From the NCBI GenBank assembly GCA_031286265.1, contig JAITUP010000186.1:1-32827 (forward strand): DNA of 32,827 nucleotides. Direction: 5' to 3'. A model generated the notes under the pieces. The model saw only the letters and a list, made by a program, of their open reading frames with translations, searched no databases and was not told where the DNA came from. Source of the stretch: Chitinispirillales bacterium. GTDB lineage: Bacteria; Fibrobacterota; Chitinivibrionia; Chitinivibrionales; Chitinispirillaceae. The number at the start of each line of letters is the position of its first letter. Position 1 is the stretch's first letter. The position numbers and the translations under genes are program-made. Positions 7,422 through 26,895 of the stretch are shown here, one piece after another.

Positions 7422-8555
7422 TTATCCTATCCTGAGCGGCATAAGAAGGAACAAATCTTCACTATTTTTGTCTTTCTCGTCCGCGTATTCCGGAAATATC
7501 AGGCATGCGCTTATCTGCGTATTGACCTCAAATCGCACTTTTTCTGTTTTTATCGTGTCGAGAATTTCCATAAAAAATTGACCGTTAAAACCCATAATGT
7601 GCTCTTCACCGGAATATTCTACCGGCATGTTCCATTTTGTTTCGCCTCCGGTTTCTATATTTTTAACCGTGGCCTCCATATCGCCGGTTCTGAATATTAG
7701 CTTAACGAGACGGTCTTTTTGACTTGATAAAATCGCGGCGCGGCCAATCGTTTCAAGCATGGCAACTCTATCGGCAACGATTTTTTTAGGATTATTTTTG
7801 GGAATCACCCTGTCATATTCCGGATATTGTCCCTCAATAAGTTTTGACACCATTGCAAACGACGGTGTCGAAAAAGAAATATATCTTTCACCAATCACAA
7901 CTTTTAGCGATTCGTCCTTATCTTTGGAATCGGTTATGCGCATCAGCGTTTCTACACTTTTTCGCGAAACAATTTTGCTAAGACTTTCTTCAACGGGCAA
8001 ATTAATATCAACAAATGAGTGCCCGAGGCGACTTCCATCGGTAGCGACCATTCCGGTTTTATCCGATGATAATTCCCACAAAATGCCACACAAAACGGGG
8101 CGCGTTTCATCTTTTGAAGCCGCAAAAGATGTTTTTTGTATGATTTCACGAAGAACAAAACCGTTTATGCTCAACTCCACTCCGTCTTTTATTTCAGGAA
8201 CACCTGGAAAATCGCTTGAATCGGCCCCCGCTTCCTTATGGAAACCTTTTTGAGACGCAGATTCCATAAGCATTACCATTCCATCAAGCGACAGTGTAAT
8301 AGCGCCCTCGGGGAATACCCTGACAGCATCAAAAAATCTTCGAGCGTTAACAGTAATATCAAACGGACCCTCGCCCGACGCGCCTACGGTGACGCGCAAC
8401 GAGTGATCGGCATCCGTAGCCACAATTTCAAGAATTGAATCCGAATACGAGAGCTTGAAATTGGACAATATCAAAAGGGAACCTTTCGACGGAACAACCG
8501 GAAAAGCTTTTTGCACCGCGTCAAGCAAATCTTTTTTTTGAATTACAACCGACAT
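7422..8555 (-). CDS. dnaN: DNA polymerase III subunit beta (sliding clamp)
   Basis: 377 aa; ILSNFKLSYSDSILEIVATDADHSLRVTV, TRPVLCGILWELSSDKTGMVATDGSRLGHSF, EGQYPEYDRVIPKN; C-terminus LFLLMPLRIG. Confidence 0.95.
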   Translation of the reverse strand: MSVVIQKKDLLDAVQKAFPVVPSKGSLLILSNFKLSYSDSILEIVATDADHSLRVTVGASGEGPFDITVNARRFFDAVRVFPEGAITLSLDGMVMLMESASQKGFHKEAGADSSDFPGVPEIKDGVELSINGFVLREIIQKTSFAASKDETRPVLCGILWELSSDKTGMVATDGSRLGHSFVDINLPVEESLSKIVSRKSVETLMRITDSKDKDESLKVVIGERYISFSTPSFAMVSKLIEGQYPEYDRVIPKNNPKKIVADRVAMLETIGRAAILSSQKDRLVKLIFRTGDMEATVKNIETGGETKWNMPVEYSGEEHIMGFNGQFFMEILDTIKTEKVRFEVNTQISACLIFPEYADEKDKNSEDLFLLMPLRIG

Positions 8556-8917
8556 GTTTCACCATCCTATTACGTTAATTTATCTAAAAATTCAGTTATT
8601 TTCCCAAAACTCACACATATCAACATTGCGCATATATAACCACTATAACTACTATTCTATTAAACAATAAAGAAACAGTAATTAGATATGTTGATACACG
8701 TTAATAAAGCTGTAACCCATTGATATTTATACAGATAGGTATGTTGATACCATACGGGTTAACTGTCTGTTGATATGTGCATAACGTGTTTATTAATGAA
8801 AAATCGTCAATTACCAACACGTATCTACACGTTATCAACACAAAACATGTTAAAAGATCAACGTCCGACATAAAATAATATTTTTCAGACGAAATATCCA
8901 CATTATTATAAAAAAAA
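8556..8917. other. Candidate oriC (dnaA-dnaN intergenic region)
   Basis: AT-rich 362 bp between dnaA and dnaN. Boxes: ATATCAACA 8617-8625; TGTTGATAC 8689-8697 and 8742-8750; TGTTGATAT 8768-8776; TGTGCATAA 8776-8784 (reverse complement TTATGCACA fits TTATNCACA); TTATCAACA 8832-8840; ATATCCACA 8894-8902. AT-rich stretch adjacent to the dnaA stop. Confidence 0.7.
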
Positions 8918-9958
8918 TTATTTATTTAAAATTGATATTATATATTCTACGTCCTGTGCCACCGATTTATCGGCATTCATCAATTTTTCAACTAACTGTA
9001 TGGCATGGATGACTGTGCTGTGATCTCTGCCGCCGAAGTTCAAGCCTATGGATTTCAGGCTGTGATTCGTAACGTTCTTCGAAATATACATTGCGACCTG
9101 CCTGCAAAACGCGACTTCTTTTCTTTTATTTTTTTCACGAATATTGTTTACCGGAACTTTATAAAAATCGGCTGTTTTTTCAATTATTGCGTCTATGGAT
9201 ATTTTTGATTTTACGGTTTTAATATTGTCCTTAAGCGCGTCTTTGGCTAGATCAAGCGTTATGTCGCTTTTATGTATGGACGCAAAGGCAAGGAGCCGTC
9301 TTACAGCGCCTTCCAATTCTCTTATATTGGATGAAATATTTTCGGCTATGTAGTACAAAATTTCGTTAGGAAGGCTTAAATTTCCTTCTTCTGCCTTTTT
9401 TTCAAGAATTGCGACACGGGTTTCAAGATCAGGCGGTTGAATATCTACGGAAAGCCCCGATTGAAATCTGGAAATTAACCGGTCTTGCAAACCTTTTAAC
9501 GACGACGGAGGAAGATCGGACGTTAGTACAATCTGTTTTCCATTTTGATAAAGCGTATTAAAAATATGAAAAAATTCTTCTTGCGTACTTTCTTTTCCGG
9601 CAAAAAATTGAATGTCGTCCATAAGTAATACATCACTCTCTCTGAACCGTGTTGTAAATTTTTTAGTATTGCCGTCTTTTATTGATTCTATAAAACTTAT
9701 ATAGAATTCTTCGGATGAAATATACGTTACCACACGCTGTGAATCGATATTAGCAACATAATTTCCGATTGATTGCAATAGATGTGTTTTTCCAAGTCCT
9801 ACGCCGCCATATATAAGTAGTGGATTAAATTTAGTTTTTCCCGGCGCTTCAGCCACGGCCATAGCCGCGCTCTGGGCAAATTTGTTGCTAGGCCCGACCA
9901 CAAATTTTTCGAGCGTATAATGTTTATTCAAGTGTGGATACAGTATATCGATTTGCAT
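8918..9958 (-). CDS. dnaA: Replication initiator DnaA lacking domains I and II
   Basis: Starts MQIDILYPHLNKHYTLEKFVVGPSNKFAQSAAMAVAEAPGKTKFNPLLIYGGVGLGKTHLLQSIG (start of domain III). Walker A GGVGLGKTH, LLMDDIQFFAGKESTQEEFFHIFN, C-terminal DNA-binding signature GLNFGGRDHSTVIHA. 346 aa. Confidence 0.95.
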   Translation of the reverse strand: MQIDILYPHLNKHYTLEKFVVGPSNKFAQSAAMAVAEAPGKTKFNPLLIYGGVGLGKTHLLQSIGNYVANIDSQRVVTYISSEEFYISFIESIKDGNTKKFTTRFRESDVLLMDDIQFFAGKESTQEEFFHIFNTLYQNGKQIVLTSDLPPSSLKGLQDRLISRFQSGLSVDIQPPDLETRVAILEKKAEEGNLSLPNEILYYIAENISSNIRELEGAVRRLLAFASIHKSDITLDLAKDALKDNIKTVKSKISIDAIIEKTADFYKVPVNNIREKNKRKEVAFCRQVAMYISKNVTNHSLKSIGLNFGGRDHSTVIHAIQLVEKLMNADKSVAQDVEYIISILNK

Positions 9959-10153
9959 ATTATTTTAATTTGTATAACAACATAAAAATACTGGAACATA
10001 GAAATATAAATAATGGCATGAATCAAAATCATTTTTTTGTAGTTTTTATAGAATCTAAGTTTTTTAATTTTTATCCATTCACTGGCTTTAGCCATGGCCT
10101 GACCGTAAAATCAGGGGTAGGTTTTAGATATTGAGGTTATTATCAATCCACCG

Positions 10154-10588
10154 TTATTTTTCCAATGCTGTCAATATTCCCACAAGTTCGTTACGAATTT
10201 CCGAAATAAAATTTTCGGGCGGTTGCAAAAACGGTGCAGACGGTGTATCAAATAAATCAACTTTTTCACATGATTTTTTCTCGTTGTGGCGTTTTGTACC
10301 GAGACGTTCTTCACGGCGTTCTTCCGTTATTTTCTTTTGAGCTCCTGAGACTGTATATTTTTCTTCCTGCAACAAGTGTTTTATTCGGAGAATAAGTTCG
10401 ATATCTCTGTCTTTGTATGCACGGTTGCCGGAACGGTTTTTCTTGGGGCGTAATTGGGTAAAATCTTTTTCCCAACCGCGCAAGGCATGAGGTTCAAGGT
10501 TTGTCATTTGGCATACTTCGCTGATTGTATAATAGAGCTTTTTGCCGACGACGGGTTTGGACGAGTGGTTGTTTTTTGTTTGCAACAT
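10154..10588 (-). CDS. MerR-family HTH regulator
   Basis: LYYTISEVCQMTNLEPHALRGWEKDFTQLRPKKNRSGNRAYKDRDIELILRIKHLLQEEKYTVSGAQKKI: MerR-type winged HTH and W1/R-Y-x-x-x-D pattern. Confidence 0.85.
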   Translation of the reverse strand: MLQTKNNHSSKPVVGKKLYYTISEVCQMTNLEPHALRGWEKDFTQLRPKKNRSGNRAYKDRDIELILRIKHLLQEEKYTVSGAQKKITEERREERLGTKRHNEKKSCEKVDLFDTPSAPFLQPPENFISEIRNELVGILTALEK

Positions 10589-10652
10589 ATTTTACTTGTA
10601 TCTCCCATAAGAAACAAAAATCAGAATATCAAAATAAAAACATAAAACATTA

Positions 10653-11669
10653 TCACCAGAACTCCGGTTTTGAATCTCTCATCATCAAATCGCGAACAGC
10701 TTCCTTTGCCGATTTATTCTCAAATAACGTTTTGTAAATCTGTGTTGTGATGGGCATTTCTATTCCTATTTTTTGAGAAAGGGCATAAGCGGAACGAGCG
10801 GTTTCTACACCCTCTGCTACCATTGTCATTTGACCAAGCGCCTGTTCGAGTGTTAGCCCGCTTGCGATTAGCTCCCCCATTCGACGGTTGCGGCTGTGTT
10901 TGCTTATACAGGTGGTAATTAGATCTCCTATTCCCGCGAGCCCGGAGAACGTTGACTCCTTCGCGCCCATCTTACGGCCGAGGCGCATCATTTCCGCAAT
11001 GCCGCGCGTCATTAACGCGCCTTTTGTGTTGTCGCCGAATCCCATTCCGTCAATTATTCCCGCCGCGACCGCAATCACGTTTTTAATGCTTGCCGCAAGT
11101 TCTACCCCACGCATATCGTCGTTTGTGTAAACTCTAAATGTTTCGGTTGAAAAATTTTCCTGAATAAGCTGCGCGAGTTCCTGATTTTCGGACGCGGCCA
11201 CAACAGTGGTCGGTATCCCTCGCAATACCTCTTCGGCGTGCGAAGGACCGCTCAGCGCGACGATTCTATTTGCCTTGAGGTCGGGAATCTCGTTCATCAA
11301 TACATCCGTCATCAGTTCAAGCGTGCTGATCTCAATTCCCTTTGATGCCATTACCCAGCCTTTGATTTTGTCGAATACGGATTGATTTGTTTCTGCGACG
11401 GCGGCTTTGAGCGTTTGGCGCATCGTTTGCGACGGCACTACGCAAAGAATGATTTCTGCGTCATCAAATATTTCACCGATGTTGTTGGTGATTTTTATTT
11501 CCCGGGGTATAACGATTCCGGGGAGTTTCGTAGGCAGCTCCCGCGTGTCATTTAGCTGGCGTGTGGTTTCTGGGCAAAACTCCCACATTGTCAAACGATG
11601 CCCCTTCCTATGGAGCAGCATGGCAAGAGCGATACCCCAGGAACCGGCGCCTAAAATTCCTATGTTCAT
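10653..11669 (-). CDS. gpsA: Glycerol-3-phosphate dehydrogenase [NAD(P)+]
   Basis: MNIGILGAGSWGIALAMLLHRKGHRLTMWEF; SKGIEISTLELMTDVL; VALSGPSHAEEVLRGIPTTVV; ELAASIKNVIAVAAGIIDGMGFGDNTKGALMTRG. ORF extends to 11702. Confidence 0.95.
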   Translation of the reverse strand: MNIGILGAGSWGIALAMLLHRKGHRLTMWEFCPETTRQLNDTRELPTKLPGIVIPREIKITNNIGEIFDDAEIILCVVPSQTMRQTLKAAVAETNQSVFDKIKGWVMASKGIEISTLELMTDVLMNEIPDLKANRIVALSGPSHAEEVLRGIPTTVVAASENQELAQLIQENFSTETFRVYTNDDMRGVELAASIKNVIAVAAGIIDGMGFGDNTKGALMTRGIAEMMRLGRKMGAKESTFSGLAGIGDLITTCISKHSRNRRMGELIASGLTLEQALGQMTMVAEGVETARSAYALSQKIGIEMPITTQIYKTLFENKSAKEAVRDLMMRDSKPEFW

Positions 11670-11722
11670 AATAATAGTACCTCCAAAATTAAAATTTTCC
11701 ATGGAGCGGCTTGTGTTCGCCC

Positions 11723-26675: not shown

Positions 26676-26895
26676 TTGTTTCTCCTTGCCCTATGTTTAT
26701 TGAAATATCAACATGTTTTTCTCGGCGTTTCCTGCGCATGCTTCCCACATCCTGTAAGCCCTAAAATAACCGCTAATATCAACACCGCTATAATATTTGT
26801 TTTTCTGTTATCATCATGTGTTTGAATCTGTTGTTATAAAATATTTGTTGTCGAGGTGTGAATGCAAAAGATTTTTTATTATATTCTTTATTAAT

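Follow-up and report, generated by a model that had tools for sequence, protein, structure and literature searches.

An origin-linked DnaA lacking domains I and II, and a full-length second DnaA encoded elsewhere, in a genus of Chitinispirillales

Domain I is normally regarded as an integral part of the bacterial initiator DnaA, a hub for both oligomerisation and helicase recruitment. The dnaA gene described here lies beside dnaN and encodes a protein that begins at the AAA+ domain, which raises the question of how the functions of domain I are provided in such a cell. The window analysed, a stretch of 32,827 nucleotides, is contig C85 of a draft genome (2.64 Mb, 278 contigs, 92% complete).

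The dnaA1 locus

The gene, here dnaA1, occupies positions 8918–9958 of the reverse strand, with its ATG at 9958–9956, an in-frame TAA upstream at 9967–9965 and its stop at 8918, and the ORF, Pfam and a table of motifs describe a product of 346 aa consisting of AAA+ domain III and DNA-binding domain IV. Bac_DnaA is matched from residue 10 over profile positions 1–162 of 162 (E = 8e-66) and Bac_DnaA_C at E = 1.7e-25, and Pfam detects no DnaA_N in the product, whose actual N-terminus is MQIDILYPHLNKHYTLEKF and not the LNKHYTLEK given in the initial annotation. That annotation's description of a DnaA without domains I and II, starting at the AAA+ domain and with domains III and IV intact, is borne out by these bounds and matches, by the same architecture in the congeners G002, G004, G005 and G006, which speaks against chance or a sequencing error, and by the catalytic and recognition motifs: Walker A and B, the arginine finger R285 and sensor II R334 are in place, as are the helix-turn-helix of domain IV and its box-recognition motif GGRDHSTV. 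Judged by the tree, DnaA1 is a DnaA by descent, though a variant one. Canonical bacterial DnaA proteins (E. coli, B. subtilis; PDB 8btg, 2hcb, 1l8q) share with it the AAA+ motifs of domain III, the RDHS of domain IV, the linkage to dnaN and a box cluster adjoining the gene; unlike them, DnaA1 is without domains I–II and has a second DnaA in the same cell.

Downstream, dnaN (beta sliding clamp; 7422–8555, reverse strand; gene call and Pfam) is separated from dnaA1 by a spacer (8556–8917) in which DnaA-box-like 8-mers cluster. Five TATCAACA 8-mers lie there (8618, 8689, 8742, 8768 and 8833), that is, 5 of the 11 in the window (whole-window expectation, 0.98), together with TTATGCACA at 8776 and ATATCCACA at 8894. 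The adjacency of dnaA1 to dnaN and to this cluster is as expected of an initiator gene at its origin, and the clustered 8-mers and TTATGCACA make the spacer the probable oriC. Two more TATCAACA 8-mers are found 71 bp apart at 26706 and 26777, between TPR-repeat and ribD-like genes.

Upstream, an AT-rich leader (9959–10153, reverse strand) holds a promoter-like element common to relatives. This putative element, ATTATTTATATT (10003–10014, reverse strand), also occurs 5' of the short dnaA1 of G005 and, as CTTTTATTTATATT, 5' of the full-length dnaA1 of G010. The next gene is MerR-like (10154–10588, reverse strand); relatives have rpmH-rnpA-yidC in this place, which shows the window to be rearranged from about 10.15 kb onwards. 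Over 10154–11702, the MerR-like gene and gpsA stand instead of the block seen in L036, L038, L040, L042 and L047. Elsewhere in the window, positions 1–1253 contain two 266-bp direct repeats, 81% identical and 987 bp apart, and the ORF between them (269–835) resembles the C-terminal part of an IS110-type transposase.

Loss of domain I across the genus

Five genomes of the genus, g1, yielded the dnaN-linked DnaA1 (G000, G002, G004, G005 and G006), and in all five it is without domains I–II, each N-terminus reading MQ(T/I), a few further residues and LN(K/E) before domain III. Sister genera of the same family have a full DnaA1 at the rpmH-dnaA-dnaN locus, with equivalents of W6 and W25 and, mostly, of F46. 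Full-length DnaA at this locus in close relatives, which the initial annotation had regarded as evidence against a real loss, is therefore present in the sister genera and absent from every congener examined, and it is this distribution that makes the loss real and a property of the genus. The short proteins form a single clade in the tree (UFboot 100), with the full-length protein of G010 as its sister (UFboot 99).

The distance from rpmH to the start of the short dnaA1 is 113–291 bp in G002, G005 and G006 and 730 bp in G004, the interval being rearranged in the window, and the distance to full-length starts in relatives is 171–317 bp; such similar spacing indicates that the DNA of domain I was deleted, not merely left untranslated. 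A profile of domain I from sister-genus DnaA1, which gave E = 2e-39 on a positive control, had no match in any of the five congeners when all six frames of 2 kb of upstream DNA were searched, and Pfam gave no DnaA match in three frames of 9959–10153. The upstream DNA thus holds no remnant of domain I, and no simple frameshift accounts for the short gene, in line with the earlier remark that none was obvious. Because the full-length DnaA1 of G010 begins MQTNNHNLKIW, the start appears to have been kept: probably, an in-frame deletion of about 110–125 codons took domains I–II and spared the MQT start. By comparison with relatives, the spacing 5' of the gene and its promoter-like sequence are mostly preserved, and domains I–II were most likely lost in the ancestor of the genus, with start codon, leader and locus preserved.

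The shortened gene shows low pN/pS (0.06 for G004/G005 and 0.14 for G002/G006), which marks it as functional and under strong purifying selection. Walker A K178, Walker B D235/D236, R285, R334 and RDHS are retained in 5/5 congeners, R399 is replaced by K in all five, and all five keep a hydrophobic residue at position 211, which is required for ssDNA in other DnaAs (PMC8287927).

All genomes compared are drafts, and several further ones were considered and set aside. True loss of dnaA1 in G001, G003, G007, G008, G019, G023 and G027 is unproven, as dnaN is missing there too and the origin region is thus probably unassembled. The short DnaA of G137 lies at a contig end, and in G117 domain I is partly present in a shortened frame; neither was accepted as a comparable case. 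Within the genus, dnaN was not found by protein search, PF02767 or PF02768 in G001, G002, G003, G006 and G007, which for G001 and G002, at 89–91% completeness, is odd though probably a matter of missing assembly; G006 has a DnaN-like sequence only as a long ORF (L082), and dnaN is not next after dnaA1 in G002 and G006.

A second DnaA with domain I

Contig C238 of the same genome encodes a full-length second protein, DnaA2 (469 aa), which adjoins pdxJ and carries the only strong DnaA_N match genome-wide (E = 4e-16). The initial annotation had proposed a split or relocated N-domain and a genome-wide search for DnaA_N; that search located domain I inside DnaA2, the sole match, and revealed no free-standing domain I in the genome with either PF11638 or a lineage-specific domain I profile, weak PF11638 matches on C32 (E = 0.2) and C98 (E = 0.7) being judged chance. 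The proposal of a split or relocated N-domain is thus not supported. That C238 is a stray contaminant was rejected, as DnaA2 has orthologues in congeners, adjoining pdxJ in G002 and G004–G007, and the DnaA2 copies of the genus form a clade (UFboot 98). With a second, full-length DnaA in the genome, the loss of domain I from DnaA1 does not amount to a cell without domain I. Exactly two dnaA genes are present in most of the 134 phylum genomes with a DnaA, and a Fibrobacteria record, L179, groups in the tree among the DnaA1 sequences of the phylum, which makes Fibrobacterota its probable identity.

Domain I of DnaA2 has the equivalents of W6, W25 and F46 in all seven congeners that have this protein. 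In five of these seven, position 211 is T, H or K and positions 422/433 are altered, changes that, at the level of sequence, appear complementary to the loss of domain I from DnaA1; the DnaA2 of the window's own genome is unaltered at 211, 422 and 433, with canonical AAA+ and a family-typical recognition helix. Between G004 and G005, pN/pS is 0.29 for DnaA2 against the 0.06 of DnaA1, whereas the two do not differ between G002 and G006 (0.14 each). Most DnaA2 proteins of the family and order (e.g., L048 and L063) read GGRDYSTV for GGRDHSTV (H434Y), and the two paralogues may accordingly prefer different boxes.

Upstream of dnaA2 (−350 to +20), 13 perfect TTATCCACA boxes were counted against 0.33 expected; they occur in 11 of the 12 family genomes examined, typically near −190. 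Boxes so placed tie dnaA2 to DnaA control, through DnaA1 or DnaA2 itself. Six perfect TTATCCACA boxes, five of them within 310 bp, also lie in the mnmE coding sequence of G004 (L038:4301–4992).

A comparable arrangement is seen in g33, a genus of another family. All five genomes examined encode a 344-aa DnaA starting at domain III (MDISPQYRFDSFAEG...), which scores best against DnaA1 of its own family, has lost sensor II in four of the five and lies in a different context, with folP and an M16 peptidase. A second, diverged g33 DnaA (L197–L201) keeps the N-domain (DnaA_N E = 1.6e-4, below Pfam's cut-off) and has lost R285 and R334 in 5/5 genomes and Walker B D236 in 4/5. The trees do not place g33 reliably, with long branches and deep support of 62–83. 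Most simply, the g33 loss would be a second, independent event, and its recurrence makes coincidence less likely.

How initiation may be divided between DnaA1 and DnaA2

We favour, with moderate confidence, a reading in which DnaA1 binds oriC and opens it, DnaA2 contributes the functions of domain I in trans, and DciA probably serves as loader. DnaA1, with ATP-binding, arginine finger, sensor II, ssDNA position and recognition helix intact, would bind the spacer boxes and open the duplex; DnaA2 would join DnaA1 in one ATP-dependent filament by way of domain III, and its domain I would recruit DnaB and regulators, the helicase then being loaded by DciA. Loss of domain I from DnaA1 would be tolerable because the phylum-wide DnaA2 keeps it. 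E. coli DnaA without domain I still unwinds DNA in vitro (PMC5448010), domain I is necessary for normal DnaB recruitment in E. coli (PMC12122000), and DciA, present in this genome and in 7/8 genomes of the genus, is the ancestral helicase operator (PMC5109545). What we infer beyond the observed architecture, age, selection, DnaA2, DciA and boxes is that mixed DnaA1/DnaA2 oligomers form and recruit the helicase in trans; we found no documentation in the literature of mixed DnaA oligomers of natural paralogues. Further points count against this reading: the window's DnaA2, canonical in AAA+ domain and recognition helix, could initiate alone, complementary decay being confined to other congeners; the boxes before dnaA2 may mean autoregulation only; and the parallel in g33 is weakened by the loss of sensor II from most of its short copies and by its uncertain position in the trees.

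It is also conceivable, if unlikely, that DnaA2, being full length and phylum-wide, is the working initiator and that the short DnaA1 is a regulator, whether by promoting ATP hydrolysis as an Hda-like partner, by titrating boxes or by controlling transcription. A DnaA without domain I would be missing the helicase-recruiting part (PMC5448010), and Hda is likewise an AAA+ relative of DnaA that has no domain I and whose N-terminal tail is short; the window's N-terminus, MQIDIL (9958–9941), is even loosely like the clamp-binding QLxLF peptide of Hda. However, MQIDIL is found only in the window (the congeners read MQTSKSLP, MQTPRPLP, MQTDRPHS and MQTPERPL), leaving no conserved clamp-binding motif, and DnaA1 has the full domain IV that Hda lacks. 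Moreover, DnaA1 keeps the origin locus, the recognition helix and the ssDNA residue and is the more constrained protein in G004/G005, the only close pair in which the two clearly differ, and it is DnaA2 that bears altered recognition residues in most congeners.

Somewhat less probable still, in our estimation, is initiation by DnaA1 alone with no use of domain I, the helicase being loaded through DciA, through domain III contacts (as with E. coli H136) or by a PriA/PriC-like route. The presence of DciA would suit such a scheme, but were domain I dispensable, one would not expect it to persist, as it does, in the second DnaA of both lineages whose first has lost it. An assembly artefact, frameshift or decaying pseudogene, which a fragmented draft of 278 contigs and a window rearranged upstream of dnaA1 might bring to mind, is refuted by conservation across the genus, since five species with uncorrelated assemblies share the architecture, with no upstream remnant, intact motifs and strong purifying selection.

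Returning to the favoured reading, DnaA1 matches in domain content the DnaA proteins without domain I engineered in E. coli and Streptomyces, but it occurs naturally, dates from the ancestor of the genus and seems to have its loss compensated by a paralogue. Searches of the open-access literature gave no account of a naturally occurring DnaA devoid of domain I, or of two DnaAs in Fibrobacterota. Chlamydiae are among the bacteria with two dnaA genes per genome, and we know of no loss of domain I from one copy in such bacteria. More tentatively, a two-protein initiator, with one DnaA to recognise the origin and open it and the other to provide domain I and bring in the helicase within a mixed filament, could have arisen twice in the phylum.

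Results here suggest that a task usually left to a single protein is divided between two DnaAs. An origin-linked DnaA without domain I, under strong selection beside a paralogue that has it, constitutes a natural separation-of-function experiment, and makes it testable whether the molecule opening the origin must itself carry domain I and whether initiators of bacteria may act as hetero-oligomers, like eukaryotic ORC/Cdc6.
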